From: Isoetes taiwanensis
Lineage: Eukaryota > Streptophyta > Lycopodiopsida > Isoetales > Isoetaceae
Direction: 5' to 3'
NCBI GenBank assembly: GCA_021234155.1
Contig: JAJEKV010000091.1
Coordinates: 1,929,501-1,993,500, forward strand
Length of the DNA: 64,000 nt
The notes under the pieces were generated by a model, which searched no databases, was not told the DNA's origin, and was given only the letters and a program-made list of their open reading frames with translations. A program made the position numbers and the translations under genes. This document shows positions 22,095-41,911 of the stretch, piece after piece. Each line of letters begins with the position of its first letter. Positions within the stretch are counted from its first letter, which is position 1.

Positions 22095-22095
22095 T

Positions 22096-22111: not shown

Positions 22112-22141
22112 TCTGATCTTTCTTCTTTCTTTCTTTTCACT

Positions 22142-23922
22142 ATGTTTACTCGTGCTTTCACTCCTGAAGAACTCCTTTGCCAAACGGCGGCTCGATTGGA
22201 GTGCCATCAGCATCGCGAAGCTACTCAAGACATGCATGACACTGATTATGATATCGAGGGAGGCCGTGTCCGCTCCAGATCTCAGTCGGCACCGCCTACT
22301 CCTCGTGTTCATTCTCGTCCAGGGTCTCCCCCTGTGTGTAATCATTGCTCTCAACCCCAGTCGCCACATGATCATACACCAGTCCAGCCCACTCCTCATT
22401 ATTTCTAAACCCCGGAAAGCACCTACATTCATATCCCCTCAGGTCACACCCCTCTGCCTTCGCAACCTTCTTCTCCCCCTGCAGGGATGGGCTATCCACA
22501 TGTCTCTTTTGGCCCTCCCCACGTCCATGAATATCAGACCTCCCCATCCTTTCAGCATGCTCTTCCTGTCTACAATCTTACTGACCTCAAGCTTAATGAG
22601 GAGGCCTCCCATGGTCCTTCGCCACAGGATGCTCCTCTCTTTGGCCCTCTGGGTTTTTCTGCTCCTATGTAGCCTTGTTCCCAGCCCACGGCTGTGCTAC
22701 AAAGCTATGTTCCTGCTTATGCTCCACCTGTTTATGCGCAACGTCCGCCTCCATCTCCTGTTCAAAATCTTAAGCTGACATATCCCACATTCGAAAATAC
22801 TAAAGGAAAGCCTCTAGATCAAAGTGCACAAGCTCACATGGAGGAATTTGAGGCACTGGCTATCCACAATGGCCACGCTCAACCTCAACTCAAGTTCCAC
22901 ATTTTTTCCACCACGCTGCAAAGCGCCCCTCATCAGTGGCTCATGGCCAACAAGAGCCATTGGAAACAAAACTGGCAAGAGATGAAGACTGCATTTCTTT
23001 CCCATTATGGCACCACGGACGATGATCAACTACTGCTGAAACAACTCAATGATCTTCAGCAACAGCCCACGGAGTCCGTGCGTGATTTCGCGGATCGCCT
23101 TCACATTCTGGTCAGCAAGCTCCAGGAGTACCCCACGCAAAGCCAGATTCTTGTCTGGTTTCTGCAAGGCCTTCCTCCTGCCATTCATCTCATGACCGAG
23201 TACCTGCGTCCCAAGACTTTGGAGCAGGCTATCAAATTAGTCAACCACTCAGTCAACGTCTCCTCACGAGGTGTTGCCCTCACGGAACTACCTTTCATGC
23301 CACCCGTCATGGTTCCTCAGAATGCGGTTCAGCCTCAACAATCTGCCCCTCAACGCACTCAGATCTGGCACATCTGTAAATATCAAGGTCATCTTGCCAA
23401 TGAGTACAACTCCACCAATGGTCCTCCTCATTGTAAACGGTGCAACATGTGCAATCATGCCACTAGTGTACACGTTCACATCCCACACCCTTCAGACAGA
23501 AAATGGTTTTTCAGGTGCAAACCACGCCTCAACAGCAACAATCATATCCGCCTCAGCAGTATCAACAAGCTCAGCAACCTCAACAATCTAGGGGTCAAGG
23601 CCCCCGTCAACCTTTTGATCCTTCCAAGGCTCAGTGCTATCACTGCCAAGAATGGGGTCATACCACCATGGCACACCCTCAGCTTCCTCAAGTCCAAGTT
23701 CAACTTCCAGGTACAAATCAAACTGCATCAGTCCGACTCACGGCTTATCAATTATGGGTCGCCAATGGCAAACAAGGCCCATGTCCTGTTCTGAGGAAGC
23801 CACCACGGCCACCTCAACAACAGCACCCTCAGCAAGCAGCGTCGTTCTCTACTCCTCTGGATCAACAAGCTCAAGAAGAAATTTATCAGGCTCTCAATCC
23901 TCCGGTACAGCAGTCCAACTAG
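22142..23922 (+). pseudogene. Outer gypsy gag, broken by stops and a frameshift
   Basis: The frame starts at MFTRAFTPEELLCQTAARLE (22,142), stops at 22,408, resumes in a Pro/His-rich linker, and is open again from 22,694 (366 codons). That part holds the retrotransposon gag fold: YPTFENTKG, HMEEFEALAIHNG, SAPHQWL, the segment around residues 85-130 with TESVRDFADRLHILVSKLQE, and GLPPAIHLMTEYLRP. A decayed zinc knuckle (WHICKYQGHLANEYN) follows, and after a frameshift near 23,500 a Gln-rich segment (QQQQSYPPQQYQQAQQPQQ) and a second knuckle, CYHCQEWGHTTMAH, whose last Cys is His. It would form the capsid/nucleocapsid. Dead as it stands. Confidence 0.88.
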
Positions 23923-24065
23923 GTTGGTTTGGTTTCTCGCCAGACCAAGGCCTCACGTCCCTTGACGATCATACCTCACGACACGCAACTTGCATTTACT
24001 GTCGACACAATTCCAAGTGAGGACACCAAGAAGGTCCATTTTTCGCGCCAGATCTGGATAAACTC

Positions 24066-24839
24066 ATGCCCCATGTCATGCCAAAGGTGCGACAGAGTAT
24101 TCTCAAACTCATGCAAGCTGCTGAAGGCCGCACGCTTGCAAATGTTCATGCCACTACGTGTGTTCAGCAGCGTCAGGAGCCACCTTCCTCATCCAAAAGC
24201 CCATGCTCTCAGCCATGTCCCAATATTGCTACCGAGGTGGAGCTTCTCAAGGAGGTTTCGGCTTCCTTGCCTCAGACTCCTGCCCCTTTGGATCCTGCAG
24301 ATCCATTTTCTCATGTTCCATTGGAACTTCAAGAAGAGCTCGCCAAAATTAAGATTCCCTTAAGCCTTGCCACTATTCTCAAACTCTGTCCTGCTCTCAA
24401 AGAACAGTTACCCCTTCCCACTGTTCTGGTCGGAGCAGTGGCTACTTCAACACCCACAGTGCATGCCACGATGGGGAACCAACGGATCAATTACGTTCAA
24501 ATTGATGGAGGTAGTGCTGTCAACCTTATTACAAACAAACTTCGGAAGCAATTGGGCATCAAGCAACTATATCATGCCCCCTATGACATCAAGTTGGCCA
24601 ATGGCAATATCACGCGCCCTCAAGGCGTCACCCCCCTTCTCCACATGAGTATTGGTGATCTCAAATTCCCCTTGGAATTTGGTGTTTGGAAAGTCGATGA
24701 AGATCCGGATGACTATGAAATGCTGGTTGGACGACCCTTTCTCCGCCAGGCTAAAAGTATTCATTATTGGGCCACAGATCAACTTGTCATCACTGATGGC
24801 CTTCTCAATGCACTACGGATTTGGAAACAGGCAAGCTAA
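24066..24839 (+). CDS. Outer gypsy protease region (257 codons)
   Basis: An open frame carrying the retropepsin domain at residues about 135-245: YVQIDGGSAVNLIT gives the catalytic Asp in IDGGS, a common plant gypsy variant of DSGS, and YEMLVGRPFLRQ is the ALGR-like block near the end. It would cleave the gag-pol polyprotein as a homodimer. The frame ends at 24,839, and the RT part resumes only after the nested element at 35,300. Between 24,840 and 25,001 the continuation is in a different phase. Confidence 0.85.
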   Translation: MPHVMPKVRQSILKLMQAAEGRTLANVHATTCVQQRQEPPSSSKSPCSQPCPNIATEVELLKEVSASLPQTPAPLDPADPFSHVPLELQEELAKIKIPLSLATILKLCPALKEQLPLPTVLVGAVATSTPTVHATMGNQRINYVQIDGGSAVNLITNKLRKQLGIKQLYHAPYDIKLANGNITRPQGVTPLLHMSIGDLKFPLEFGVWKVDEDPDDYEMLVGRPFLRQAKSIHYWATDQLVITDGLLNALRIWKQAS

Positions 24840-25001: not shown

Positions 25002-26547
25002 TGTGACGTCCCCTACTTCTTCTACGATGCTCCCATCATATCCGAAGGCAGAGTTCATCCCCCTGGTAGCCAAACTAGCAAGGGCCATCCACCTGACACC
25101 AATCCCATGAACTGGGCCAGTGAGGGAAGAGTGGATGGGTCATTTGCCCGTCTTCCTTCGGGACCGTTCTAGCTGCAAAAGCGTGAATAAACATGAGCAC
25201 ATAATCATCAATACATCAATAAGCTCACCTCGAAGGGTGAACACATCATAATATCACATGTACAATAAATCAATAGCATCAACATGGGGAGATCCTACCC
25301 AGGGCTCAGACTCATAGGGGATCGACTGACGGCTTGAGTCTCCAGAAGTCAATGCAGACCAAGTCATGGCAATGGATTGGGCTGGCATAAGAACATGGCT
25401 GTTGGGTAGTCCACTCCATCCGCCCCTCCCATGCACACTTTGCAGAGTAGGTTGAAAAGTGTTGGGACCGGACCGTAGCATGCCGGGTACATAGCCAAGA
25501 GGGCTACTGCTGGGTTGCATCTCCCCAGTCCTGATGAGGCAGGAGGAGAGTCACCTCCCCTCCAGAGGCGTGCATGCCCATCACAGGTGGCTAGAGGGCC
25601 ACTGCCCTTATTCGACTTGAACCCCATGGAAGGTGACGCATCACCCCAGAGGTGTCGAGCTCATGCCTTGCCCACACTCAGTGGCAAACCATTAAGCCTA
25701 GCCCACTAATGGGACAAGTCCCCCTTTTTCAGTAATGGGACAAGTAATGGGTAATCAGTAATCAGTAATGGGACAAGTCCCCTTTTTTCATCGGTCTAGC
25801 CCCTCCACCCACAACCAGGCGGGCTCTTGTGCATGGGCCGCATTAATTGGGTATTAATGAGGCTATCTAGGGACATCTGCTACAAAGGCTTTTAGGGTCT
25901 CTACCCCCCTTCCCAATACATGGGAGAGCATAGAATGAACACCATAATCATCAAAGAACTGAATTGTAGAATAACATCTAATCTACCTACCTAAACATCC
26001 AAAGTTAGATTCTTTTGTTAGGGCTTATGATCTCGGGATCTATAAGGCCTCTAAGGCTGAACTAACATGCTAAACCAGCTCATTGCCAAGCTAAAGGCGG
26101 CTTTGCACAATAGAATGACTATTTACCTGGCGCCTGACTTGCTCCAGATCCTCGGAATGCGTCCATGCTTCTGATCCCGCTGAAGACTGCTGCTGCTGGA
26201 AGATCTGTTGTGCAAGGGCGGCTTTTTAGAGCCTGACGATGCGAACTAGAGTCCTGGCTTGGCCGAAATAGATCTGGAAAACCCTAATTGCGAAAAAAAA
26301 GAAGGGTTTAGGGTTTAAGGGGGAAGCCCTTAAATAGAGACTTCTAGGGTTAGGTTAACATTGGCCAAATGGGATTTTTCCATTTGGCATTAAACATGCA
26401 CAACTTACGAGGTTGCCCCCTAGGTGCAACCCTTGCCCCCTAGGTGCAACCCTTTACGTCTCGCTAGTACTTGTCATGATGACAAGTACGTGTGACGTGG
26501 CAGTATAATATACGTATTTGGGGCATATATTATATTGGAACGTCACA
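25002..26547 (-). repeat. Chromovirus 3' LTR (left copy), with promoter and short ORF start
   Basis: 1,546 bp. On the element strand: a 23-bp palindrome (half GTACTTGTCAT) at 26,467-26,489; a TATTTAA box at 26,330-26,336; telo-box-like AAACCCTAAACCC and CAATTAGGGTTTT just downstream; then an ATG at 26,164-26,166 starting MDAFRGSGASQAPG and reaching a CAG/GTAAAT splice-donor consensus at 26,126. A block at 25,709-25,795 has been rearranged relative to the other LTR. Confidence 0.93.
26121..26166 (-). CDS. Putative first coding exon in the 3' LTR (MDAFRGSGASQAPG)
   Basis: Fourteen codons from the ATG 165 nt downstream of the LTR TATA box, then CAG/GTAAAT. Unspliced, it stops two codons later. 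The same start is in the other LTR (34,872-34,917), and nearly the same residues (MDAFGSRGASQGPG) begin the H3-like ORF at 32,829. This suggests an LTR-encoded leader exon spliced onto a downstream body. No transcript is available to prove splicing. Confidence 0.6.
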
Positions 26548-27299: not shown

Positions 27300-28136
27300 C
27301 TACTTCGGTGACGAGCCGACCTTGCATTGCTCCATGAACTGGAGGTACAGCTTCTCCAAATCTGATTGTAGTACCCACGTAGCGTCCTCCACAGGTAAGT
27401 GCGTCCATTTCACAAGGTATTGGAGAAATTTAGATCTTCTTATCTTCTTATAGGCCCTGTCAAGAAGAACCTCAGGGACGATTTCAAGCTGGTCGTCCGT
27501 CATTTCCAGTAACTTGGTTGTCTCTAATACTTCCTCTGGATTAGGAGTGTGCCTCTTTAGGAGACTTACATGGAAGACCCTATGGATTTTGAGATGTGCT
27601 GGCAGGTCCAACTTGTAGGATTGGGTACCTACTCTTTTGGTTATCTTGAAAGGTCCAGCCCATCTTGGAGCAAGCTTCTTGCAATTGCCTATGCGGAGCT
27701 TGGCCTGCTTCCCCTTGATCTTCAACCATACATTGTCTCCCACTTGAAATTCCCTTACTGTCCTGTGCTTATCGGCGATGTTTTTCTGCCTGCTTCTTGC
27801 TGCTAGGAGGTATCCTCTCACCTCCTCCACCAACTGCTGCATATCCGAAAGCATCTGCTGGGAGACTTCCACTTTTGACACTGGGTTGTGCCAAGTATCT
27901 GGGGTAAGACACTGATACCCATAATTGATCATGAAAGGAGACATCTGCGATGACTCCTGCTTAGTGCTGTTGTATGCGAACTCTACTAGGTGGATGAAAT
28001 CCTCCCACTTGGATTGTTTGTTCCACACGTAGTTCCTTAGTATATCTTCGATTATCCTGTTGGTTCGCTCCGTCTGACCATCTGTTTGCGGATTATAGAA
28101 AGCTTCGTCTGGATGGTGGTAAATAGGTCCTGCCAA
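27300..28136 (-). CDS. Chromovirus integrase C-terminus with chromodomain (278 codons)
   Basis: The open frame starts inside the integrase core just before the catalytic Glu (NPQTDGQTERTNRI, Glu at about residue 24). The core ends with FAYNSTKQESSQMSPF. It continues through a GPY/F module (LAPRWAGPFKITKRVGTQSYKLDLP, with IHRVFHVSLLK) and ends with a chromodomain at about residues 222-265 (EVLLDRAYKK..., YLVKWTHLPVEDATW...). In chromoviruses the chromodomain reads histone H3 tails and directs integration into heterochromatin. Aromatic-cage positions appear partly retained (Y, W). The first two thirds of the integrase lies upstream in other phases. Confidence 0.92.
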   Translation of the reverse strand: MAGPIYHHPDEAFYNPQTDGQTERTNRIIEDILRNYVWNKQSKWEDFIHLVEFAYNSTKQESSQMSPFMINYGYQCLTPDTWHNPVSKVEVSQQMLSDMQQLVEEVRGYLLAARSRQKNIADKHRTVREFQVGDNVWLKIKGKQAKLRIGNCKKLAPRWAGPFKITKRVGTQSYKLDLPAHLKIHRVFHVSLLKRHTPNPEEVLETTKLLEMTDDQLEIVPEVLLDRAYKKIRRSKFLQYLVKWTHLPVEDATWVLQSDLEKLYLQFMEQCKVGSSPK

Positions 28137-29500
28137 AATGCACTCATAAATTTAGAATCCGTATTCGAGATTATCTCCCTCCGCATGCCATGGAGTCTAA
28201 AAATTTCTTTAGTAAATAGGACGGCAGTATCCACTGTTGTGTCTGTTGTCCTGCATGGCGCAAAGTATCTTCGACAACTTATCCACCACCACCATCAGGG
28301 CATCCTTGCCTCTTGTTGTTCTTGGAAGTCCTGTAATGAAGTCCATGCTTATGACTTCCCACTTAGCATTTGGCACTGGCAACGGCTCCAAGGCTCCTGG
28401 GATTCGGAGTTGCTTCGCCTTTGTTTGCTGGCATATCTGGCACTCACGAATGTACCTTGCTATCTGTTTCTTCATGCCGGGCCAGAAGTAGCTGCTTCTA
28501 ATCTTGAAATATGTCTTCATGAACCCTGCATGGCCAGCTATGGGGCTATTGTGTGTATCATGGAGAATTAACTTTCTTACCCCCGAAGATTGTGGTACAC
28601 ACAACTTGTTCTTATGGTATAGGAGGTTTCCTTCCTTTTTATAGTTCTTGAAGGCCTCCTTTCCTTGTCTGTTCTTGCCTCTTTAGAGAGGCTTGCCCAT
28701 ACTTCTTTAAAGTCGACATCTGTTGGCAAGGTCTCCTCAATCTTTTTGCCATACTCACTTGTGAGCGTTGATATGGCGTTGCAATGCGCCCTTGTCTTCA
28801 ACGGCTTCCTGGAGAGCGCATCTGCGACTACATTCAACTTGCCTGGCTTGTAGACTTCGAAGTCATACTCTTCGAGAAATTCCATCCACCTCCTTTGCCT
28901 CAAATTTAGGAGTGGTTGTGTGAAAATATATTGGAGACTTTGGTGATCTGTGTCTAGTTGGAACTTCCTTCCCAACAAATAGTGTCTCCAGATTCACAAT
29001 GCTCTTACAATGGCCAAGAGCTCTTAGTCATGAGTTGGATATCACTGCTCCGCATCATTCATCTTCTTGGAGTCATACGCGACTACCCTTTCCTCCTGCA
29101 TGAGCACTGCGCCTGTTGCTATCCGGCTAGCGTCTGTTGCTACAAGCTTATCTTTGGTTGGGTCTGGCAAGACTAAGACTGGCGCTGTCGTTAAGGCTTC
29201 TTTCAACGTCTCTAATGCTGCATGGACCTTCTTTTGCCAATGACTTGCCCAATCTTTTATCTTTCTTGCTTTGGTAAGGTCCGTCAATGGAGCTGCCACC
29301 TTTGCAAAGTTCTTAACGAACTTCCTGTAATACCCTGCTAGGCCGAGGAAGCTCCTCACTTCATGTGTGTTCTTTGGTGCCGGCCAATCAATTACTGCTT
29401 CAATCTTTGCAGGGTCGGTGGAGATCCCTTCCGCCGAGATCACATGCCCTAAGTACTCCACTCTTTCTGTTGTGAGCAGCCAGTCGAGCATGCATGCCAA
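28137..29500 (-). pseudogene. Chromovirus RT end, RNase H and integrase N-terminus, frameshifted
   Basis: On the element strand: RT end and connection (29,500-29,042), with [37 protein letters not shown] and the RNase H start ([15 protein letters not shown]); after a phase change at about 29,010, the RNase H end (28,978-28,577), with FQLDTDHQSLQY and LNVVADALSRK; then the integrase zinc domain (28,604-28,209), with HDTHNSPIAGHAG and CQICQQTK, and the start of the core (DALMVVVDKLSK, first catalytic Asp). The second catalytic position reads IISNTDSKF (28,052-28,234 in a third phase), where the expected Asp is Asn. RT motifs A-C and protease are absent: the sequence joins the gag-like ORF straight to the RT end near 29,500. 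Confidence 0.9.
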
Positions 29501-30672
29501 AGCCAGAGAGTGCGATGAGCATAAACACTCCTTCTTCGCCCCTGGGGCTGAATTTGCGGTGTATTACCGCTATTCTCCCATCCAGCAGCAGGGGAAGATA
29601 GTACCTCAGCGATCTGTCATTGTGCGTCGTTGATGACTCGTCACCCCCTCGGCCGCCAGCTCTATGTCTTCCGGCGTATTCATCGACCTCTACCTCAGTG
29701 ATTTCTCTGTAATCCCTGATTGTCGATGAAACTCGCCTGATGTCGATTCCTCCTCTTCTGTCTGTGGGAGTTGGAGTCGAAGAGCTCGGCATCAAAATGC
29801 TCGTGGTCTTGCCACGGATCCCCATCCGTTCTTGGATGGCATATAACTCCTCCTCAGATGGCAGTTCTCGAGCTTCCATTATTTGCCTGATGTTGCTGTA
29901 GGCTTGGAGGTTCGAAGTCGACTCTCCTGTATAGGTGTCAGCTTCTCTCACTTGAAGCGGGAAATCTGAGACTCCCCGGACGATGAAATCATCTAGGTTT
30001 GGTTTCTGCCGCAGTTGGTGCAGCAACTCGTCGAGTCGGAACTCTCTCTCCCTGCATTCAGGGAGGTTCTGGATGTCATTGAGGAGCAGGTACTCCTCGC
30101 CGTCAATGATGATGGGGGCTAGGCTTGTGATACCTAGCCCGAGTGGGGGAGCGACTCTGAGGGTCTGCCGGCTTCGCTCGAAGTTGGGTAACTCTTCTTC
30201 CGCTAGCCGTTGTTCTTTTGCTGGGTCGAGCTCCATGTACTCTTCATCTTCCGATTCCTCTTCTTCTGTTCTTCCTTCTTGCTCCTGCTGGTACTGTAAA
30301 AGGAGCTGGTCTGCTGCTGAGGATACTATGGGGTCCACCTCCATGGGAGGGATAGAGGTTTCCCCCATTGGGTTTTCAGCACGGTGGGAAAGAAAGATCG
30401 CTAAGGCGGCGGTGTAGGAAAAATACTTGGTCCTGTCAACTGTCAGGACCATGTAATCTGGCAGCCTCTGGGCCTTGTTGGTCAAGTACTTGGCAATGTC
30501 GGAACATCACCCAAGGCTGCTTGAAGGGATGGGCGGGGGACAAAATAGCCTGTACAAGGTGGAAGTTGCACTCATCAATCTCTTTTTGGAAAAGTTGAAA
30601 GATGGTATTGACATTGGTCTCAGCTGCATGGGTACTGGCGTTGTACCATCGCCTGAAGTCAGCAGTTGCCAT
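29501..30672 (-). pseudogene. Chromovirus gag-like ORF of unrecognised type, one frameshift
   Basis: A first piece (30,672-30,436, MATADFRRWYNASTHAAETN...) and a second, overlapping it in another phase (30,485 downward), belong together: the join falls near FRHC/DIAKYLTNKAQRL. The first roughly 110 residues are helical and Trp/Phe-rich, followed by a long acidic region (EEEESEDEEYMELDPAKE), a segment with repeated PNLDDFIVRGVSDF-like text, and an Arg/Gly patch (GRHRAGGRGGDE). No CCHC knuckle or standard chromoviral gag motif is seen, perhaps because that part was deleted. Its position between leader and RT indicates gag, but the fold is not recognised. Confidence 0.55.
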
Positions 30673-30983
30673 TGCTCTAGGGAAGATGGAACTAACAAAC
30701 GGATGCAGAAGCGCCTCTGAGAGCTGGGAAATTGCCTAAAGGGTCGAGAGCAAAATTGTAGGGTGTCAAGTGAGAAATGGGGGCCTATTTATAGACAAGG
30801 GAAAAACCCTAATTTTTGGGTGACCTAGAAATTTATTGGAGTTGGGCAATTCTGACCTATTAGGAGGTCCAAATGGGGATTTGAAGGCTACTTTGGGTAT
30901 TTAAGCGTCCTGGAACTACCTAATAAACCTATTGCAACAAACTGGAGGTCAATTGAATATGGCATTGTGGAGAAAATGCTAGG

Positions 30984-31053
30984 AGGTCTCACACATTGCG
31001 CCCAGATCAAAACTGGGAGTCTTGGTTTTGCTCCTGGCGCGACTGTGAGACCT
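30984..31053. repeat. Leader hairpin 1
   Basis: A 70-bp imperfect inverted repeat bounded by AGGTCTCACA and TGTGAGACCT, with inner GCGCCCAG / CTGGCGCG and CAAAACT / GGTTTTG complements. Closely related to hairpin 2 at 32,204-32,272. Confidence 0.75.
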
Positions 31054-31207
31054 CGACCCTATCTTGGTCAAAACTTGTCCAATTTGGGTAGTCTAAGGGT
31101 CTAATCATGCTAGACTCATCGAATAGGTAGAATGGACCCCTTACTTGGTCGATTTGGAGGTGTTTTGGTCTATTCCTAGGATGGGTCCTATGACACAATC
31201 AAGTGGC

Positions 31208-31500
31208 CGAAGTGAAGTGGTGTTCTCATTGAGCTTTGTAAAAACATTGAGTACACATGGATCCCTCACTAGGGGTAGATAAATTTGGAAATATGAACTC
31301 TAAATGCTCCGAAACTAGACAATCATCGAGAGCATGATGATACTGAAGAATACAACATAAAAGATGGTTTTATCCGCCACTTGGCCGATGCAAAGGTGAG
31401 AAGACCTGGTGACTGCTTCTCATCGGGAAGAAGAACCACGCCTTCTTAGGTTTTTGAGGAAAACCCAAGCAAATAGAAGAAGCACGACCCCACGCACTCT
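31208..31500 (-). repeat. Dispersed repeat, copy shared with 54.64-54.93 kb
   Basis: Two blocks match the plus strand near 54.8-54.9 kb in reverse orientation: the reverse complement of AATAGAACACCACTTCACTT-like sequence at 31,208-31,230 and of TGATTGTCTAGTT..GGCATTT at 31,302-31,325. The spacing is the same in both copies (about 118 and 120 bp). A third, weaker match is the GGTTTTCCTCAAA block near 31,450. Probably the 3' end of an unidentified retroposon inserted in the leader. Confidence 0.5.
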
Positions 31501-31584
31501 GGCAACCACAAGACCTTAAAAAATCCTGCCGAGTCAAGGCTGAAAGAAAAATAACCCGTCAATGAGTTAGATGCCATAGGCAAA

Positions 31585-31880
31585 AAGACTCGGAGGCTCC
31601 AAGGGCCACGCCGAGAAAGAAACAACAGCCGACCAATCGAGAACCGTCCGCGGAATGACCATCGCGAGAAAAAACAACCGATTAGTGCTGCCTCGGAGGC
31701 TACAGCGCCACGCCGAGAAAAAACAATAAATATAATCTCGGAGGCAACAGCGCCACGTCGAGAGAAAACATGAATAATAAATATTGACTCAGAGGCTACA
31801 ATGCCACACCGAGAGAAAATATGAATGAATAAATAAAATACTGTCTTGAAGGCTACAATGCGGCTGTCTTGAAGGCAAAT
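31585..31880. repeat. Degenerate tandem repeat in the chromovirus leader
   Basis: Four to five units of the form CTCGGAGGCTACAGCGCC + ACGCCGAGA + AT-rich spacer, 50-65 bp each. Every well-preserved unit is capped by CTCGG at its start and CCGAG at its end and so can fold on itself. Units degrade toward the right. Confidence 0.65.
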
Positions 31881-32160
31881 TCAAAGGACATAGAAAAGAA
31901 AAGAAAATAAGGAACACGATCAAATGCAAGTAACCATCAAGGCAGGGAGGGTGAGGAAAACTGATAGGATGGAGAAGAAGAAGAAATCTAGCTCAAGTGT
32001 AAATCCGATATCAAGCTAAAGAAGGGAGAGGGGGGCGGGAAACTTGTGGAGTCAAGGAGGAAAAATGAATGGAGCTCAAGAGAACGCCGATGAACGAAAA
32101 CAAAAAAAGAGGCGAAATAAATAGGAGATGCGAGAAAGGGCGTCCCCATCCAAGGAATGT

Positions 32161-32188
32161 CGGTTCTATTGCTATCGCAATAGAACCG
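32161..32188. repeat. Perfect 12-bp-arm hairpin
   Basis: CGGTTCTATTGC, loop TATC, GCAATAGAACCG. It sits 16 bp from leader hairpin 2. Confidence 0.85.
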
Positions 32189-32203
32189 TGGCATTTTGGA
32201 CAT

Positions 32204-32272
32204 GGTCTCACACGTTGCGCCCAGACCAAAACCTGGAGTCTTGGTTTTGCTCCTGGCGCGACGTGTGAGACA
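32204..32272. repeat. Leader hairpin 2
   Basis: Near-perfect inverted repeat: the outer arm TCTCACACGTTGCGCC pairs with GGCGCGACGTGTGAGA, and the inner CCAAAACC pairs with GGTTTTG, around TGGAGTCT. It is the best preserved of the four related leader hairpins and lies about 130 bp 3' of the H3-like ORF on the element strand. Confidence 0.85.
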
Positions 32273-32403
32273 TCTCACTATTTGCTCTAGAAACGTCCTA
32301 TTTAATTGAAACAAAAGCTGTTACTTGCTAACTCAGCTTAATTAAGTAAGATTGCACATATAATCTACTCAAAACTCTTTGTATTAACAAAAATTTTCAT
32401 TAT

Positions 32404-32829
32404 TTACAAAATTTGCAGGCGTTCTCCTTTAATATAGCTGGCCAGCTGCAGGTCTTTCTTCATTAATGTGACTCGTTTAGCATGTACTGTACATGCTGTA
32501 GAGTCTTCGAAGTGATGCACTATCTTTTGCTCGGCCGCTTCCTGTAGTGCCAGCAGCATCTCGTCTGTCACCCTCATGCCGGTGTTAAACTCCTGCATTA
32601 CTTCCCTAACTAAACGGGCGAACGGTGCACGGGGGATTAAGAAGCCGAAACTGCGCTGGAAGTGCCTTATTTCTCATAGTGCTCTTCTCTCGTTCTCCTT
32701 TCTGCTGGCTCTCTTCTTTGCTGGCTTCTTGGGAGGCTTGGGCTTCTCTGGCGGCGGCCTTAGATTAGGCTATTGAATTGACGAAATACCTGGTCCTTGG
32801 CTTGCTCCTCTTGATCCAAAGGCGTCCAT
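32404..32829 (-). pseudogene. Histone H3-like ORF (CENH3-like) carried in the chromovirus leader
   Basis: The frame runs 142 codons from ATG at 32,829 to TAA at 32,404, the size of a histone H3 (136 residues). It is interrupted in frame by TAG at codon 20 and TGA at codon 52. After a short MDAFGSRGASQGPG start and a Lys/Pro-rich tail (KPKPPKKPAKKRASRKENE) comes a complete H3 fold: alphaN EIRHFQ, LIPRAPFARLVREV, alpha2 LLALQEAAEQ, then FEDSTACTVHAKRVTLMKKD and LQLASYIKGER. LIP, EAAE, RVTLM and a KKD in place of MPKD resemble plant CENH3 more than canonical H3; loop 1 is not lengthened, which is unlike CENH3. Equivalents of H3 C110, H113 and D123 are kept. The canonical tail with K4, K9 and K27 is absent. 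Codon 52 falls where H3 has a conserved Arg before EIR, so TGA is explained by one CGA-to-TGA transition. Codon 20 may instead fall in a former intron, because a GT follows codon 13-14 at the place where the LTR copies have a donor. Sense orientation in the element. Confidence 0.88.
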
Positions 32830-33215
32830 GTCACTGTCTTGCTTGGAGATGCGATCGAAAAGGAAGTCTGACGAGCTGGGGCGCTCAGGCAGATCTTGGG
32901 AGTTGGGATTGACTCTTGAAACGCGCGAAACGGAGCTCGGAAGGACTGTGGGCGAAAAAGGGAAAGTTAGGGTTTGGTGGCCTTACATAGGCTATCAGTT
33001 AGGGTTAGGGTTTTCCATGACCCTTGATATGCCTTTTAATGGTTAAGGTCTAAAGTGCGCACATTAATAACTGTGCGCACCCTTGCAAGTTGCCCCCTAG
33101 GGCGCTACTTGCTTGGCTACACGTCGGCGTACACGTCGATTGGGATGGCGTGTACGCGTGACGGTGCAGTACGGTATACGTCTTGAGACCGTATATCGTA
33201 CTGGAACGTCACACA
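32830..33215 (-). repeat. Divergent LTR-like 5' part directly upstream of the H3-like ORF
   Basis: On the element strand this begins TGTGACGTTCCA, like the chromovirus LTR, and stays collinear with it: CCGTACTGCACCGTCAC for TATACTGCCACGTCAC; a hairpin at the same place (GCGTACACG / CGTGTACGC); CCTAGGGGGCAA; a TATGTAA box at 32,983-32,989 in place of TATTTAA; telo-box-like AACCCTAACCC; and then the ATG 154 nt downstream (165 nt in the LTR). Nucleotide identity elsewhere is low, so it is a sister family rather than a third LTR copy. It therefore looks like U3 plus first exon of a related element fused to the H3-like body. Confidence 0.75.
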
Positions 33216-33271
33216 AGGTATTAGTGTTTATAGGATCAATACATTAGGTTTGTTTGGGCAAAACGTGTCCA

Positions 33272-33340
33272 CCACTCATACAGTGCGCGAGAGGCTAATC
33301 CGAGAATGACGGATTTGCCCTGGGCGCACTCCGTGAGGGG
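33272..33340. repeat. Leader hairpin 3
   Basis: CCACTCATACAGTGCGC pairs with GCGCACTCCGTGAGG, and inside it AATCCG pairs with CGGATT. Same architecture as hairpins 1 and 2 (CTCAC...GCGC stem foot) but a different inner stem. Confidence 0.75.
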
Positions 33341-33483
33341 TCATCCCTTTTTTACTCTAATTTTCAATTTACAAGGTGTTTCTTAATGTTCTAACATGCA
33401 AATCTAGCTCAAATCTAAGGATTAAGCTGCCCTCCACTATCAAATTACACTAATTATGCATCTATCTAGGTCAACATGGATCC

Positions 33484-33553
33484 ACCACTCACATAGTGCG
33501 CGAGAAGCAAATCCGAGAATGACGGATTGGCCCTGGGCGCACTCTGTGAGGGG
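33484..33553. repeat. Leader hairpin 4
   Basis: Near-duplicate of hairpin 3, about 210 bp away (CCACTCACATAGTGCGC / GCGCACTCTGTGAGG; inner AATCCG / CGGATT). Confidence 0.75.
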
Positions 33554-33733
33554 TCACACCTTTTTGGTCAAGATTTCTAGGGTTTTTGCTAAAATTTCTT
33601 TCTACTTAGTATTTATCTACTTGCTGCACTAAGGATTGGAAATTTTTTTCCCCATTTTCGAGGTTCATGCTTGGGTGGCTATTCCCAAGACTTGAAGTCT
33701 ACTGTTAGTCCTAACAGGTAATGGTCAGTGCTC

Positions 33734-33767
33734 GATCTTGGTCTACCAAGATCATGCTCTGATACCA
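33734..33767 (-). promoter_or_regulatory. Chromovirus PBS (tRNA-iMet) and adjoining hairpin
   Basis: On the element strand TGGTATCAGAGCA (33,767-33,755) starts one base inside the 5' LTR and matches the initiator tRNA-Met primer site. It is followed almost at once by a perfect hairpin GATCTTGG-TAGA-CCAAGATC (33,753-33,734), a plausible packaging or priming structure. Confidence 0.88.
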
Positions 33768-33768
33768 C

Positions 33769-35299
33769 CGTGACGTCCTCTACTTCGCCTACGATGCTCC
33801 CATCGTATCCGAAGGCGGAGTTCATCCCCCTGGTAGCCAAACTAGCAAGGGCCATCCACCTGACACCAATCCCATGAATTGGGCCAGTGAGGGAAGAGTG
33901 GATGGGTCATTTGCACGTCTTCCTTCGGGACCAACCTAGCTGCGGAAGCGTGAATAAACATGAGCACATAATCATCAATACATCAATAAGCTCACCTCGA
34001 AGGGTGAACACATCATAACATCACATGTACAATAACATCAATAGCATCAACATGGGGAGATCCTACCCAGGGCTCAGACTCATAGGGGATCGACTGACGG
34101 CTTGAATCTCCAGAAGTCAATGCAGACTGAGTCATGGCAATGGATTGGGCTGGCATAAGACCTGGTTGTTGGGTAGTCCACTCCATCCGCCCCTCCCATG
34201 CACACTTTGCAGAGTAGGTTGAAAAGTGTTGGGACTGGACCGTAGCCTGCCGGGTACATAGCCAAGAGGGCTACTGCTGGGTTGCATCTCCCCAGTCCCG
34301 ATGAGGCAGGAGGAGAGTCACCTCCCCTCCAGAGGCATGCATGCCCATCACCGGTGGCTGGAGGGCCACTGCCGTTATTCGACTTGAACCCCATGGAAGG
34401 TGACGCATCACCCCAGAGGTGTCGAGCTCATGCCTTACCCACACTCAGTGGCAAACCATTAAGCCTAGCCCACTAAGATCCCTGGTAGGCTTTACACACC
34501 AGAGGGATCAATCAGTAATGGGACAAGTCCCCCTTTTTCATCGGTCTAGCCCCTCCACCCACAACCAGGCGGGCTCTTGTGCATGGGCCGCATTAATTGG
34601 GTATTAATGAGGCTATCTAGGGACATCTGCTACAAAGGCTTTTAGGGTCTCTACCCCCCTTCCCAATACACGGGAGAGCATAGAATGAACACCATAATCA
34701 TCAAAGAACTGAATTATAGAATAACATCTAATCTACCTACCTAAACATCCAAAGTTAGGTTCTTTTGTTAGGGCTTATGATCTCGGGATCTATAAGGCCT
34801 CTAAGGCTGAACTAACATGCTAAACCAGCTCATTGCCAAGCTAAAAAGCAGCTTTGCACAACAGAATGACAATTTACCTGGCGCCTGACTTGCTCCAGAT
34901 CCTCGGAATGCGTCCATGCTTCTGATCCCGCTGAAGACTGCTGCTGCTGGAAGATCTGTTATGCAAGGGTGGCTTTTTAGAGCCTAGCAATGCGAACTAG
35001 AGTCATGGCTTGGTCGAAATGGATCTGGGAAACCCTAATTGCGAAAAAGGAAGAAGGGTCTAGGGTTTACGGGGGAAGCCCTTAAATAGAGACTTCTAGG
35101 GTTAGGTTAACATTGGCCAAATGGGGTTTTGCCATTTGACATGGGGTTTCTAGTTGTATATGTTTATTGAACATGCACAACTTACGAGGTTGCCCCCTAG
35201 GTGCTTTACGTCTCGCTAGTACTTGTCATCATGACAAGTACGTGTGACGTGGCAGTATAATATACGTATTTGTGGCATATATTATATTGGAACGTCACA
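33769..35299 (-). repeat. Chromovirus 5' LTR (right copy)
   Basis: 1,531 bp. The first base of the terminal TG (plus strand, at 33,769) is mutated to C. It carries the same TATTTAA (35,082-35,088), telo-box motifs, MDAFRGSGASQAPG start (ATG at 34,915-34,917) and CAG/GTAAAT donor (34,877-34,872) as the left copy. Differences from it include a hairpin block around GATCCCT...AGGGATC (34,478-34,512) that the left LTR has lost. Confidence 0.93.
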
Positions 35300-36823
35300 G
35301 TGGCAGCTCTGCTTGACCCCTACCTGGCTCCTTGCAATCGCATTCAACGCCTTGATCATTTTTCTGACACGGAGGCTCCTTTTGAGGTTGTGAATGTTCA
35401 AGCTACCATGAAGCAACCTTTGCTTGATGACACTCAGCAGCCTCTTTTCTTTACTACACAAAATGCTGCACCTCCAGTAATGCTCCAACCCCCTGCTCAT
35501 GTTGTTAAGGACACGGAGGTTGTCCCACATATTCAAACTCCTGATGTGGAAGTCATGGATCTTGGTGAAAATCAACCAGTCCGCTTGGCTGCCAATCTTC
35601 CGCCAACTTATAAAGCTCGCGCTATCACTTTGTTCAAAAAATTCAAACATATCTTTGCATGGAGCTATATTTACCTTCGGGGTATCAAAAAAGAGTTGGG
35701 GGAACTGACCATTCCTACCAAACCTGATGCATGCCCAACCTAGCAACGACAGTACTGGCTCAACCCCAACTATCATGACCGCGTCAAAGCAGAAATCGAC
35801 AAACTCTTGGCTGCTGGCCTAATTTATGAAGTCAAAAACTCGGAGTGGGTGAGGCCCATTGTCATTGCTCTCAAGCATAATGGAAAAATCTGTGTCTCCG
35901 TGGACTACAGGAAATTAAATCATGCCACAGAACGGGATCATTTCCCGCTACCCTTCACAGACCAGGTTCTGGAAGAGGTCGCTGGTCACGAGATGTACTC
36001 TTTTGTGGATGGCTTTTCAGGGTACAATCAGATCTCCATCAAAAAGGAAGATCAACTCAAAACCACTTTCACCATGCCGTGGGGCACATTTGCCTATAAG
36101 GTGGTTCCTTTTGGGTTATCAAACTCTCCATCCACATTTCAACGCATCATGCTTTCTGTATTTCAAGACTATATTTAAGATAGTTCCGCCTACAGCTCCA
36201 TGGATGATCACTTGGAGAAGCTCGAGCTGGTTTTTCAAAAATGTGATGAGTCTGGTATCAGCTTCAATCCAGAAAAAAGCACTTTTTGTGTCACCTCAGG
36301 TGTTCTCTTGGGTCATGTGGTTAGTAAAGAAGGCATCACCACGGATCCTGCCAAAATAAGTTGTGTGCTGAAGGCACATGCACCATCCAACATTGAAGAG
36401 ACACGCTCCATCCTGGGTAAGGTCAATTACTATGCCACCTTCATTCCTGGACTCGCTGCCATTGCTGATCCCATTCATAAAATCACGGGTGATGAATCCT
36501 CTTGGGCTTGGAATCCCCAGGCGGAGGCAGCCTTCCAGACGCTGAAGCTTTTGCTTATTCAGGCCCCGGTCCTTGTTCCCCCTCAATGGGACAAGCCCTT
36601 TCATGTTCATGTGGATGTTTCGGCTTTTGCCATTGGTGTTGTTCTCTCTCAAGCATATGATGAGCACACGGATAAACCCATCCGCTATGCCAGACAGAAA
36701 CTCAATCCTGCGGAGCAAAATTATTCTGCCACGGAGCGGGAAGCATTGGGCTTAGTTTTTTGTGTCCAACGTATCCGTGATGATTTGTTGGGAAGCAAGA
36801 TCAAGTTCTTTGTCGATCATTAA
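35300..36823 (+). pseudogene. Outer gypsy reverse transcriptase and RNase H
   Basis: Continuation of the outer element after the nested insertion. From ALLDPYLAPC the frame runs to a stop at 35,743, resumes at WLNPNYHDRVKAEIDKLLAAG and shows RT blocks VDYRKLN, FVDGFSGYNQI (motif A) and VPFGLSNSPSTFQ (motif B). The catalytic YxDD of motif C reads YI-stop-DS at 36,172-36,186: the first catalytic Asp has become a TAA codon. The connection (FNPEKSTF, LLGHVVSKEGI, LGKVNYYATFIPGLA) and RNase H (FHVHVDVSAFAIG, YSATEREALG, FFVDH) follow in a 207-codon open frame that stops one residue after FFVDH, at 36,821. Confidence 0.9.
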
Positions 36824-38351
36824 GCTCTTCTCTATTTGATCAACAAAGCCATGCCCACGGGTCGCATTGCTCATTGGGTCCTACTTCTGCAAGAGTTCGC
36901 TCCATTTGAAATCATTCACAAGGCAGGAAAATCTCATGTTGTGCCCGATTATCTCTCGCGCATCCACACAGATGATCCATCCACGGGTATTTCTGATGTT
37001 TTTTCAGACCCCCAATAGTTTTTTTGTCACAGCCACGCCACATTGGTTCCATGACTATCAGCAGTATCTCCTCTCTAGCGCCTTTCCGTCTGAGGATCCC
37101 ACGCTCCCTCCGGAAAAGCTTCACTCACGCCGTCGTCAGTTCCTCCGTGAGGTCCGTGACTATACCATGGTTGCGGGCCATCTCTACAAACAAGGCAAAG
37201 ACTTGGTTCTGCGTCGATGTGTTCTCCCTCATGAAGTGCCCGAAATTGTTCGACAAGCCCATGAAGGCCTGGGTGGTGGTCATTTCAGTGGTGACACCAC
37301 GGCACGCAAAATTCTTCTTGCAGGCTACTTTTGGCCCACGCTCTTCAAGGATGCCCACGCTCACGCCCGCACGTATGATGTCTATCAGCGTGTGGGTCGA
37401 CCCACGGCCCGTGACGCTCTATCTTTGACGCCGGTTGCCACCCCGCTACCCTTCAGCAAGTGGGGCATGGACTTTGTGGGGCCCATGGATCCTTCTGCGC
37501 GGCATACCCGTGCCCGCTATATTTTGGTTCTCATGGACTATGCCACGAAGTGGGCGGAGGCATGTGCACTTTCTGACAATACTGTTGCCAGTACGGCCAA
37601 AGTCCTTTACACGCATATCATCACGCGTTTCCGATGTCCCACAAAACTAGTCAGTGATCGTGGAGTTCATTTTGTCAATCATACCATCAAGGAGCTGACG
37701 GATTATTTGTATATCCATCACAGAAAAAGTACACCTTACTATCCTCAAGGGAATGGTTTGGCTGAAAGCACTAATAAGACTCTCATTACTATTCTTGCAC
37801 GGATTGGCAAGACAAATTACCTACTGTTCTCTGGGCTTACAATACGAGCTTTTAAAATTGCTACTGGCCACACTCCTTTCAAGCTGGTTTATGGCCAAGA
37901 GGCTCTCATGCCTTTTGAATATCTTCTGGCTCTTCGTTTTCAATCGGCCACCATGCATAATCCAACTGCAGCACTTCAAGAACGAGTTTATCAACTAGAA
38001 CAATTAGATGAACTTTGCAGAGATGCTTATCTTCGTGTCCTTACTGGGCAACAATTGCGAAAATCTTGGCATGACAAACATCTCAAAGCAAAGACTTTCA
38101 AAGAAGGAGATTTGGTCCTACTTTATGACTCCAGGTACAAAAATTTTCTAGGCAAATTAAAGTTTCGATGGCTTGGTCCTTATCAGATTCTTGCAGTTGT
38201 GCAACCCAGTGTTTTCAACCTCGCTGAGTTAGATGGCACACCATTACCTACTCTAGTTAATGGCTTTCGCCTCAAACAATTTCACACAGATGAAACGACA
38301 GTTCATTCAGACAACCAGGATGATCATTCAGATTCTGCACAAAGTGAGTAG
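36824..38351 (+). CDS. Outer gypsy RNase H end and integrase
   Basis: LLYLINKAMPTGRIAHWVLL and SHVVPDYLSR (36,830-37,018) complete RNase H in one phase. A 494-codon frame (36,867-38,351) then encodes integrase: a zinc domain that is degraded (HEGLGGGHFSG kept, but the usual CxxC reads YDVYQR), the core with the triad LVLMDYATKW / LVSDRGVHF / GNGLAESTNK (35 residues between second Asp and Glu), and a C-terminal segment with FRWLGPYQILAV. No chromodomain follows. Around 37,810-37,855 the peptide reads NYLLFSGLTIRAFKIA, whereas another phase of the same DNA encodes LPTVLWAYNTSFK, the expected text. Two indels therefore cancel each other and the frame survives. Confidence 0.9.
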
Positions 38352-38459
38352 AAGACTATTTATATTATATATCGCGAGAAAAACAAAATGTGGGCATTTC
38401 CCATATACTTTCGCTACGGGCTAAGCCCTATATACAAAATTCTACATTAAAGGGGACCC

Positions 38460-38702
38460 CTACTCCGGGTTTGGAGCAGAGGTCACACAGAGGATGTGGT
38501 AGAGGCACTGCTCGTGGTCCCAGCGCAGGTGAATGACCACCTCCATGGGGTTGGTCAGTGGGTCGGGGTGCTCAGCCGTTCTGGCACACCACCCGTCCAT
38601 GGAGATACCGCGGTTCCGCAGCTTCCAGAGGTCCATAGCGTTCATCTTTGCATTAATCCACACGTTGTAGTTCCGGGGCATAGTGCACTCGCTGTCCATC
38701 AT
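38460..38702 (-). CDS. Small antisense ORF with its own TATA box, after integrase
   Basis: Eighty codons from ATG at 38,702 (MMDSECTMPRNYNVWINAKM...) to TAA. No stop interrupts it even though the surrounding element is full of them. A CTATATAAAG box lies at 38,746-38,737, placing a start site about 30 nt downstream, just at the ATG. Antisense and sense additional ORFs between integrase and 3' LTR are known in Tat-lineage elements. The end (NPMEVVIHLRWDHEQCLYHI) resembles the sense ORF at about 41,810-41,860 (TPAQISIDLRWDPRFVRRSV), which may indicate a shared origin. Function unknown. Confidence 0.5.
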   Translation of the reverse strand: MMDSECTMPRNYNVWINAKMNAMDLWKLRNRGISMDGWCARTAEHPDPLTNPMEVVIHLRWDHEQCLYHILCVTSAPNPE

Positions 38703-39197
38703 CGCCAACTGGTGTCTTCGGTTTGCCCACTGCTCGCTTTATATAGCCATACTGCCTAAAGCCTTGCCAATGTGGACCAATCACATTTTAGCTAACGTGG
38801 TTGTATGCAACGCACCTTCTAATTCAGGATTTCCTTATCTAGCCGCAAATCTAGTCATAGTACCATCTGCCACCCATCTTTATGATGTCCAACTCTCGAG
38901 TTGCCTGTATTAATTGTTACTCCTTCCTCCTACGCCTGTCTGCCATTATTACTCGTATCTTCACCAAGCTGTCACATCCTACCATTCATCCTTGTTCATC
39001 TCCACTGTTCCTTTGCTCTTCCTTTACCGCTTGGGGACTTAGCCAAATTTTTGCCTCCCAATCGTCTATTTTAGATCTGCTGCCATCTGGCACCATCAAC
39101 GGCTCAGCTTCCACTCCTCAAATACTTTTCCTAAACAGCCACGCGCCCTAAAACTTTTTGCATCTCCTTCGTCCTCCGTCTTCCGCTTTCTTCCTCT

Positions 39198-39656
39198 TTG
39201 ATCATCGCCATGGCTGCTTCCCCTAAGTTCCCAACCCTTCAAGTTAATGTCCCCAGGGATCTGACTCTTTTTGAATCGGTGGTTTTCTCTACTCCTACTC
39301 TTCGAGATCTCTTGGAAGATGCAAGTCGAGAAGTTGCAAAATGCACAGGGTTGTTTGAGTTCTCCAGGCAAGAAATCCCTGCTCCAAATCCGCTTCAACT
39401 CAGGCAGTTTGTCGCTCATGTGGTCAACAAGACCAACGAGGGCTATTTAACAGAGGTTGATCAGACTCGTATCCTCATCACTCCGGCTCTTCTGGCACGG
39501 GTATTCCAATTGCCTATCCGCACTTCTTCTTTAAATTGGGCTGCTTTACAGGATCAGGATGTCACCAAGTATGGCCAAACTCCTTATGCGGCCACCACTC
39601 ATAAGCTCACCAATATTGCCAAACCCCATGACGGCTTTGTGAAGTTTTTTCATTAG
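39198..39656 (+). CDS. Additional ORF 1 after integrase (first part)
   Basis: An open frame of 152 codons; the likely start is the ATG at 39,210 (MAASPKFPTLQVNVPRD). It contains helical text (TLRDLLEDASREVAKCTGLF, ITPALLARVFQLP) that recalls the capsid-like or plant-mobile-domain-like extra proteins of Tat-type elements, but no domain is certain. After 39,656 the phase is lost and the next 600 bp are decayed. Confidence 0.5.
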   Translation: MIIAMAASPKFPTLQVNVPRDLTLFESVVFSTPTLRDLLEDASREVAKCTGLFEFSRQEIPAPNPLQLRQFVAHVVNKTNEGYLTEVDQTRILITPALLARVFQLPIRTSSLNWAALQDQDVTKYGQTPYAATTHKLTNIAKPHDGFVKFFH

Positions 39657-40271
39657 TGGCGTCCCCAAGTTCTATGGGTACTCCATCAAGAACACCCACA
39701 TCAACAAACAGTTTCTTTTTTCATAACTTTTGCTATCATGGCCATCCACTCTTTCAAGTGATATATGGTTATGGATGTATTTCCCATTGATTGGTTTTGC
39801 TCTTTTTCTATTTTACATCCCAAAAGATATAACAATGGGTTGTCATGAAGATCTTGAGGAGCGAATCCATTGCCATAGTGTTCGAATCCCGTTTTTGATC
39901 AAACGTTATAGTAGAAAAATTTAGAATTAATTACCGCCACATATCTTTGGAATAAAATACACCTCTTCTCTTATGCAAAAGCCATCAAAATCTCAAATTA
40001 CCTCTACCATTGTTCATGAGATTGATCCTCCAGTAATGCCAGAACTCGACCCGTTTAGAATCTCTCACATGCAAGCCATCATCAACCATTGGTTCTTCTC
40101 CTACTCACACGGATACTACCTCTCAAGCCTCCACTCATCAGCCTTTCAACATCATCTCTGCTGTCAAAAACCTCCAGGAAGAAACCTCCCATCCACAACC
40201 GTCTTCTTCTCCCCCTCGTGTGCCACAACGTGAACCCGTCATCAATGTTCCCTCCTCTCAGTCCATAGAGA

Positions 40272-41911
40272 TTGAAAATTCCCCCTCTCAGCAAGTCTCT
40301 CATACTACCCCATCTGCCTGACTACACCAGTCCTTACAAGTTCAACCCTTGCAACCTCCTCTGTCTAGACGTGCTCTCTATCAGTATCCAGGATGTCCAA
40401 GAATGTATGCTGAAACTTCAAGACTCTCAAGAATATTTTATGAATAGGATCCAGCATTACATGGATTCTACGGATGCTCTTCAACGTGATCTTCAGGCTG
40501 CCACCACACAGGTTCAATCTCTTGAAGAAAGTCTCCAAAATAAGCATAGTGCTTTGTTACAGACCCGTGAGGCTCTTCATGCCGAACAAGAAAAGACCAC
40601 CATGCTCGCAGATCAGCAAGCTCAGTTGCAGACCACCATTCATGAACTCCTGGCTCAACTCAAGGATAAGGATAAGCTCCTCACTGATCTTTATACCTTA
40701 TATACAGATCTCTCTACGATTACAACAATCAGCTGCAGCAGGTTGCCCACAGAGATGATCGCATATCTCTTCTAAAAGGTCAAGTCTCAGCACTTCAGAC
40801 TCAGGTCACGCCCTTACAGGCCCAGGTTGTTGAAGCTCAAAAGCAGAAGTTGATCGATGACACAGAAATTGCAAGTCTTCAGCTTCAGCTTCAGCTCTCT
40901 ACTCAAGGCCCTTCCTCTTCACAGGCCACGCACTCACACAAGAGAATCCATGATCAGTCCCACCTCCTTGCTGCAAAAGATAACAAGATCCGTGACTTAG
41001 AACATCAGGTCCACCAAGCTGTTCAATCTGCTGAAGAAGCTCAGAGTCAACACGAGACATATCTTCAGCTTGCTCTGACAATTCCAAGGGATTTTTCCAC
41101 TTCCTCAAGCTATTTGGACTATGTCGTAGCACGCCATCATCTCTTCCTTCTGAAATGGTATTCAGCACAAGGAAAGATTCACGAGCCCCTCAGCAGTGCT
41201 GATCTCCTAAATATATGGCCTGATCTCTCAATTGAAGATAAAGGACTTTTCTGTGCTCTCTTGATCTATGGCCTTCTCACCTGTGATGATCCAGAATTTT
41301 TCATTTTCTGACTTGTTCAACCAATGGCTTATGTTCTTCACGATTTCTATCTAGCTGACACCATGGACAAATTCGATGATGGGCCCACTCTCCAAGAGGA
41401 GTATATGCCAGAGCTTGCTCATCACCTTCCTCTCTGGATTGCCGAGATGCTGCAACAAGTGCGCAAAAACTTATCCGAGGACATAGGTATTCAGTTTGCC
41501 CAGATTTATTTGCAACATCTTGGCAGATATAACACTCTTTGTGTATAGCTGGACAACCATACGGTTTCCACAGAATGGGTCTCTCCTCCTGTGCACACTA
41601 TGCTTCCCTGTTCTAACTGGGAACAGTGGTGTCAAACTTTAGATGCTGATCTTGTTCACGAATTCTGCGAGCAGGCTCAGAAAACCACGATGCAGCCCCA
41701 ACCTAATACTCATCCGTATGCATCTCTGGGAGCGTCACCACGCCATCGCTATCTCACCTCTGACTGGCGTCTCCCGTTTTGGATCAAGGTTTTGGAAGGT
41801 CACGCAGATTGGACTCCCGCTCAAATTTCAATAGATCTTCGATGGGATCCACGATTTGTTCGCCGCTCTGTCTGGCAAGAAGGGGATACCTTGGAGTGCA
41901 CCAGCAATTGA
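40272..41911 (+). pseudogene. Additional ORF after integrase, coiled-coil protein in broken frames
   Basis: Four consecutive plus-strand frames (40,272-40,775; 40,850-41,311; 41,324-41,548; 41,591-41,911) read as one protein broken by a frameshift near 40,720 and stops. The first half is a long Gln/Leu-rich coiled coil (TTQVQSLEESLQNKHSALLQ, HELLAQLKDKDKLLTDLYTL, NKIRDLEHQVHQAVQSAEEA). The second is globular and acidic (AYVLHDFYLADTMDKFDDGP), ending in PFWIKVLEGHADWTPAQISI and LRWDP. It lies between integrase and the 3' LTR, where Tat/Athila elements place extra or envelope-like proteins; no transmembrane segment is seen. Role unknown. Confidence 0.55.

Follow-up and report, generated by a model that had tools for sequence, protein, structure and literature searches.

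The question raised by this locus is whether a reading frame for histone H3, lying within an LTR retrotransposon of the quillwort Isoetes taiwanensis, is the accident of a single insertion or belongs to the gene content of an element family, and, in the latter case, what such a protein could do there. The window analysed, a stretch of 64,000 nucleotides, carries this frame on its minus strand from 32829 to 32407 (141 codons), a reading on the plus strand having been ruled out. The Pfam Histone profile matches residues 28-133 of the translation far above chance (E=1.5e-28, 99.9 bits), and the frame is interrupted by a TAG at codon 20 and a TGA at codon 52. The first-pass annotation of this DNA was therefore right about the H3 fold and about the two stops, as it was in placing the frame in sense orientation in the leader of a chromovirus, for which LTRs, a primer-binding site (PBS) and a minus-strand integrase with a chromodomain are present.

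The outer element is read on the minus strand, as are all the parts of it described here. Its 5' LTR (TGTGACGT..., 33768-35299) and 3' LTR (25002-26547) form a direct repeat of 91.3% identity (K2P 0.040), with flanks, ATGGC and GTGGC, that are alike in 4 of 5 bases. An exact match to the PBS TGGTATCAGAGC, which we take to be of the initiator-Met type, lies at 33756-33767, and repeat comparison revealed, between this site and a fragment of a different type, referred to here as lineage D, a pair of leader repeats each about 97 nt long (33256-33352 and 33469-33565). The fragment opens with 450 bp from the start of another LTR, of D type (TGTGACGTTCCAGTACG..., 32765-33214, 85.6% to positions 42-496 of the D copy L033), which include the spurious MDAF start of the H3 frame, and continues with the C-terminal part of the D-type ORF1, containing the H3 fold, and its 3' flank (32223-32764, 85.9% to L033 3160-3703 and 75-85% to other D copies). 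A broken D-type ORF2 with its upstream spacer occupies 29476-31165, in two blocks (31165-30573 and 30572-29476; 90% to L033 and 91.3% to L040), and this ORF2 scores 27.4 bits against an HMM of ORF2 from the other lineages. Between H3 and ORF2 there is an insertion of about 1 kb (31169-32194, without assigned strand), visible as a collinear gap against L034-L038 and missing from the D copies compared.

From 33214 to 29476 the sequence is 85-91% identical to the D copies L033, L037 and L040, the D copy L036 reaching only 75% in the H3 stretch. The region that follows (27303-29475) holds the end of the RT, RNase H, integrase and chromodomain (Pfam Chromo 2e-7), and its pol (29475-27325) is 75.7% identical to the D pol of L040, that is, similarity to the same copy falls at 29476/29475, and 68.8% to the lineage A pol of L020. 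This drop, together with the start of the D LTR exactly inside the outer leader, suggests that 33214-29476 derives from a D-type element, a fragment of which was nested in or recombined with an outer element that is related to it but distinct. That the H3 belongs to the LTR pair flanking it, as had been supposed, is not supported. As for the surroundings, a second Ty3-like element, on the plus strand (about 21568-24839 and 35270-42893), has repeats at 21568-22094 and 42266-42893, a pol with integrase and, after pol, unassigned ORFs at 39198-41311; it appears to have received the outer chromovirus as an insertion. Further away, a Helitron remnant was found on the plus strand at 58362-60016 (Helitron_like_N 7.5e-32 in 58923-59537), and a plus-strand open frame of 332 aa (9206-10204) gave a weak RVT_1 match (2e-5), below the cut-off.

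Comparison with L033 indicates that the start of the window frame, MDAFGSRGASQGPG, is LTR sequence joined to the C-terminal part of H3 and not the start of an H3. Relative to that copy, 2.66 kb have been deleted, with about 5 bp of TCTAA-like microhomology at the junction, and the rest of the D LTR, the PBS, the leader and most of ORF1 were lost, the MDAF codons now abutting the H3 part. By translation, Pfam and the L033 alignment, the reported frame (32407-32829, minus strand) consists of about 18 LTR codons and the last ~120 codons of ORF1, with the H3 domain. Since the start is LTR fused by deletion, the "H3 length" remarked upon earlier is accidental; the gene normally encodes a fusion protein of about 410-460 aa. 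One might still see in this arrangement a short H3 gene that is functional and promoted by the LTR, since it has a start codon and a frame, and since the two outer LTRs and the D-type LTR piece all contain variants of MDAF..GASQ..PG that differ at several synonymous sites. Nevertheless, the deletion with its microhomology, established by collinearity with L033, the two stops, the presence of the MDAF pattern in only L033 among the 27 oriented loci searched, and the fact that the 149 other scored genome matches to the window H3 begin only at query residue 14-27 make such a gene extremely improbable. A related candidate, in which the LTR would supply a first exon (MDAF...|GT) for splicing to H3, was rejected on the microhomology, on the same restriction of the pattern to L033 and on the position of the junction, which lies beyond the GT.

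The genome itself (an assembly of 1,658,258,908 bases in 1110 contigs) was searched in two ways. The window H3 yielded 9846 first-look candidates, a figure not to be read as a copy number, and the best 150 that were scored (all at E<=6.6e-57) comprise the window and at least 149 other places of 75-91% protein identity, many of them without stops and with open frames of up to 493 codons. The Pfam H3 profile gave 8705 first-look candidates, likewise not copies, of which the best 150 were scored; the first 15 are canonical-like, matching from profile position 2 (of eight loci from this set, L001-L008, seven read as full canonical H3), and at least 135 places are non-canonical, matching from position 4-25, five with an internal stop. 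The scored totals are lower bounds, and side-by-side reading found no place common to both scored lists. From the 135 non-canonical places, 20 were taken with 10 kb around each, chosen mostly for long frames. Many H3-like frames in the quillwort genome are transposon sequence, a warning for genome annotation.

These counts bear directly on the possibility that a host pseudogene, of H3 or of CENH3, happened to insert into a single element. The two stops and the abnormal start of the window copy would suit it, but the same H3 is present in at least 149 other places and H3s of other kinds in at least 135, the position within the element is the same at 20 of 20 loci, the window agrees with host H3 at only 50 of 91 residues, and the frame has been under purifying selection, as described below. 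Such copies in independent elements refute the idea, and its remaining probability is negligible.

At each of the 20 loci a sense frame ending in H3 (ORF1) has one or more further genes of the element behind it, tblastn within the 10-kb pieces detecting ORF2 downstream in 19, gag in 18 and PR-RT in 18, and ORF1, which codes for an H3 with a huge N-terminal extension, sits between the PBS and ORF2-gag-pol. The exact LTR start TGTGACGTTCCA stands ahead of the H3 frame at 17 of the 20, and the exact PBS TGGTATCAGAGC lies between LTR start and ORF1 at 10 of them, as well as at all six D loci L033-L038. Downstream of ORF1 in L020, Pfam recognised a Ty3 capsid, protease, RT, RNase H and integrase, with a chromodomain just beyond, in piece L029 (Pfam Chromo 6e-9). 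The chromovirus trait, a chromodomain at the integrase C-terminus, was present in both sequences tested, L029 and the window, and the gag-PR-RT-RNaseH-IN order of Ty3 elements (Metaviridae) was found in L020 by Pfam, across the 20 loci by tblastn and in the D element L037/L040; the gag has a zinc knuckle, by a weak Pfam match. When five elements were followed downstream, four displayed an LTR pair and a target-site duplication of 5-6 bp: L012/L030 (GTGGC), L020/L029 (CAATC), L025/L032 (GTGACC) and the lineage D element L037/L040 (GTAGG), with both LTRs and matches to gag, PR, RT, RNase H and IN. For the fifth, L019/L031, no 3' LTR was found within the piece examined, and no pol was found in the 8 kb downstream of the D copy L033 (L039). 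The purine tract AAGGAGGGGAGAA precedes the 3' LTR in L012 and L025. The H3 frame of the window is best explained as a decayed and nested remnant from a large group of Ty3 LTR retrotransposons, those tested being chromoviruses, and the principal proposal of the first-pass annotation, an LTR retrotransposon family bearing a histone H3 variant, is strongly supported by many copies, in sense orientation and at the same position upstream of gag-pol, which group apart from host H3 and have a dN/dS far below 1, the very kinds of support that the annotation had asked for.

Several other structures were observed in these elements. Hairpins of about 71 nt are found in the leader and in the ORF1-ORF2 gap of D elements, mostly twice in each (L033-L038), and among 24 copies of them 4 of 21 consensus pairs have compensatory changes; in the window the hairpin or repeat sites are 33256-33352, 33469-33565, 32203-32273 and 30984-31056. 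The leaders of lineages B (L011 3365-3556) and C (L025 3523-3717) contain two tandem hairpin repeats of other sequence, and the one lineage A leader examined (L013) has no clear hairpin repeats. It is possible that leader and gap hairpins are packaging or translation signals. In L021 (1490-9524, oriented), two LTR-plus-leader copies of 2.2 kb (95.5%) flank ORF1 and ORF2 only, and this locus is a deletion or tandem derivative without gag.

In lineages A, B and C, 14 frames are uninterrupted, and their ORF1 protein measures 411-459 residues from its Met; the H3 frames are shorter at the other 6 of the 20 loci. Pfam Histone matches ORF1 at 3.6e-44 (A), 4.6e-42 (B) and 1.2e-41 (C). The core of D is divergent (EIR(H/Y)FQ.S(Y/F)G(F/L)LIPRAPFARLVREV). 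Eleven D copies were read (L033-L038, L041-L044 and L046), and in five of them (L035, L036, L041-L043) the H3 frame opens, at its first Met, with MARTK(Q/E)TARK, in which ARTK(Q/E)TARK corresponds to residues 1-9 of the H3 tail. These five products have 442-451 residues, 346-355 of them from K9 to the core, in a stretch rich in E, K and R, so that the D ORF1 represents a natural H3 whose N-terminal tail and fold stand about 350 residues apart. The other six copies read are without an in-frame MARTK tail: in L044 the exact motif, and in L033 a variant of it, lies in another frame, L034 has a decayed form, and none was seen in L037, L038 and L046. The residue after K9 in D is A or P instead of S10. 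In lineages A-C, no ARTKQTARKS or ARKSAP stretch was found and the place of K36 is mostly R; the tails of A and B have a GGK- or AGK-like patch. The earlier view that the modifiable tail had simply been replaced is not supported: in D, its first nine residues are in frame at the real N-terminus in 5 of the 11 copies. As to the remaining parts, a search of 5.8 billion proteins, which yielded 1257 candidates, found no relative at E<=0.001 for the N-terminal part of lineage A ORF1 (P0240 residues 1-295), Foldseek gave no match for it at E<=0.001 in PDB or BFVD, with a model confident only at about residues 10-225, and ORF2 gave no Pfam match and a poor model (mean pLDDT 38.8).

Selection was assessed within lineages by the NG86 method, those dN/dS values taken between lineages being mostly saturated. 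For the H3 core, the median dN/dS was 0.050 in A (15 of 15 pairs), 0.019 in B (21 pairs) and 0.046 in D (L033-L038; 12 of 15 pairs usable), values biased downward by the choice of copies for H3 score, window-H3 similarity or long frames, a choice which does not act directly on the rest of ORF1 or on gag-pol. Outside the core, the medians were 0.116 for the N-terminal part in A (13 of 15 usable), 0.140 for the rest of ORF1 in B (the same 21 pairs) and, in D, 0.136 for the middle, 0.130 for the tail and 0.313 for the N-part (14 of 15). The gag-PR-RT median was 0.103 (frames of 11 of the 20 loci; 54 of 55 pairs), and ORF1 is under purifying selection about as strong as that on gag-pol. Moreover, the mean dS between copies (0.44-1.37 by segment) is far greater than the divergence within LTR pairs (K2P 0.020-0.041), and ORF1 must therefore have been retained over a time much greater than the age of any one insertion measured. 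Taken together, the element anatomy and the selection on ORF1 can be regarded as nearly certain.

The relationships of the H3 core were also different from those first suggested. Compared with host H3, one copy each, the cores of A, B and C are identical at 78, 80 and 81 of 92 residues, and that of D (L035) at 50 of 92, close to the window figure given above. In an ML tree of about 90 sites, with weak deep support and host CENH3 left out, the window and D form one group (support 100), which is sister (72) to long-tailed H3s (those of Adiantum, of a Ceratopteris family and others) and lies outside plant CENH3s, while A-C fall near canonical H3. With D divergent and A-C near canonical, at least two H3 types are therefore carried. 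A CENH3-like origin had been proposed, and plant CENH3 and lineage D do have RHFQ, LIP.APF and LMKKD-like residues in common. However, loop 1 of D is of canonical length, aligning to host H3 without insertion (92 versus 92 residues, compared with 95-97 in six plant CENH3s), the RPW-type C-terminus is missing and D is not inside CENH3 in the tree; descent from CENH3 was rejected.

Cores similar to that of lineage D belong to an H3 family of the fern Ceratopteris richardii, known from proteins alone, although the core of D is more divergent. At least 25 KP509_ proteins are in this family among the 120 matches listed (P0038, P0128-P0130, P0133-P0140, P0142-P0148, P0153, P0154, P0159, P0166, P0172 and P0176, the canonical-like P0150 being left out); their locus tags point to 16 numbered chromosomes and to unplaced contigs, and 17 were placed in the tree. 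Ten of the 25 have a MARTKQTARK-like start, exactly MARTKQTARK in four, followed by an insert. N-terminal stretches common to several members suggest a dispersed repeat, and possibly another transposon-borne H3.

With respect to function, C110, H113, D123 and L126, presumably residues of the H3-H3' interface, are retained in one representative of each lineage (L012, L016, L025 and L035) as well as in the window copy, and the same is true of R69, R72, R83, R116 and T118. Retention of the interface and of most DNA-contact residues favours a protein that pairs with host H4 and enters nucleosomes, and the H3 of ORF1 is probably nucleosomal. In D (L035), R63, F84 and R129 have been lost and the alpha-2 chaperone motif reads DEMLL, so that assembly of D by the normal chaperones is uncertain. 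Alternatively, ORF1 could serve the virus-like particle as an accessory, either structural or binding nucleic acid, its H3 fold condensing RNA or cDNA and never entering host nucleosomes, in keeping with its place upstream of gag and with the basic residues kept. Mere condensation would not need a conserved H3-H3' interface, however, and the element already has a gag with a zinc knuckle (by that weak Pfam match), which makes this role improbable.

The best overall explanation, to which we give a probability of about 0.6 on sequence grounds, is that of H3-bearing Ty3 elements whose ORF1 protein would enter nucleosomes. Element RNA would be translated into ORF1 protein, which would assemble with host H4 into nucleosomes, either on the new copies of the element or on host chromatin, where its N-terminal part would act as a built-in effector. 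In A-C, such chromatin could not take host silencing marks, since the usual K4/K9/K27/K36 tail context is absent, and the most likely net effect would be element-built chromatin that is resistant to silencing or permissive for transcription. The MARTK tail, missing in A-C and present in D, speaks against a single tail-based mechanism, and an anti-silencing role is offered tentatively, as a conceivable use of such a protein. Similarly, it may be, although this is less likely than not, that a captured H3, now a long-tailed element-specific histone, replaces host H3 on element chromatin to escape or redirect silencing, and that related lycophyte and fern elements have carried such an H3 for a very long time.

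The ARTK(Q/E)TARK stretch is what H3K4/K9 readers bind, and ORF1 could, in a different manner, be a chromatin tether for integration, with its H3-tail-like N-terminus or its H3 domain, within or alongside the integration complex, steering insertion through host readers or through the chromodomain of the element. The elements do carry a chromodomain and D keeps the motif in frame in the five copies mentioned; nevertheless, the A or P in place of S10 and the lack of the motif in A-C leave a tethering function rather unlikely. Returning to nucleosome entry and self-made permissive chromatin, a core histone within an LTR retrotransposon would be the most direct attack imaginable on chromatin-based silencing, and the intact open frames make the idea of an element placing its own histone on its own chromatin testable.

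No report of a histone-encoding retrotransposon was found in the open-licence PMC literature, judging by titles and abstract beginnings among the matches listed. The word "histone" has 0 occurrences in the Isoetes genome paper (PMC8566536), and "retrotransposon" has 0 in the main text of a review of viral histones (PMC9145170). Tcn1-like and other chromoviruses of non-seed plants (PMC2864245, PMC3350952) are, like the quillwort elements, Ty3 elements with a chromodomain, in lycophytes and mosses, but their titles and abstract beginnings mention no histone ORF. According to the authors of PMC9289625, LTR retrotransposons only rarely fix extra domains; section 12 of this work, a screen of 121 angiosperms, names no histone domain. 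The Phalaenopsis Ty3/Gypsy elements described in that paper, with an AlkB-type m6A RNA demethylase, are likewise a plant Ty3 lineage in which a regulatory domain has been captured and fixed as an additional ORF; this domain is an RNA demethylase there and, in the quillwort elements, a histone as ORF1 upstream of gag-pol. Single H3s are also known from DNA viruses (xenomavirus, phycodnaviruses and sylvanvirus; PMC9145170, in its main text), where, as here, one core histone is supplied by the virus, sometimes with an extended N-terminal tail, and such viral single histones are thought to act together with host histones; the H4 of bracovirus (PMC5423620) is another single core histone of viral origin. 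The tails of the DNA-virus H3s described in section 9 of PMC9145170 are 35, 53 or 68 residues longer, whereas in lineage D of the quillwort about 350 residues separate tail and core, and the carriers are LTR retrotransposons in many copies. Ty3 elements that captured an AlkB demethylase, and the single H3 histones of DNA viruses, are the nearest known kinds.
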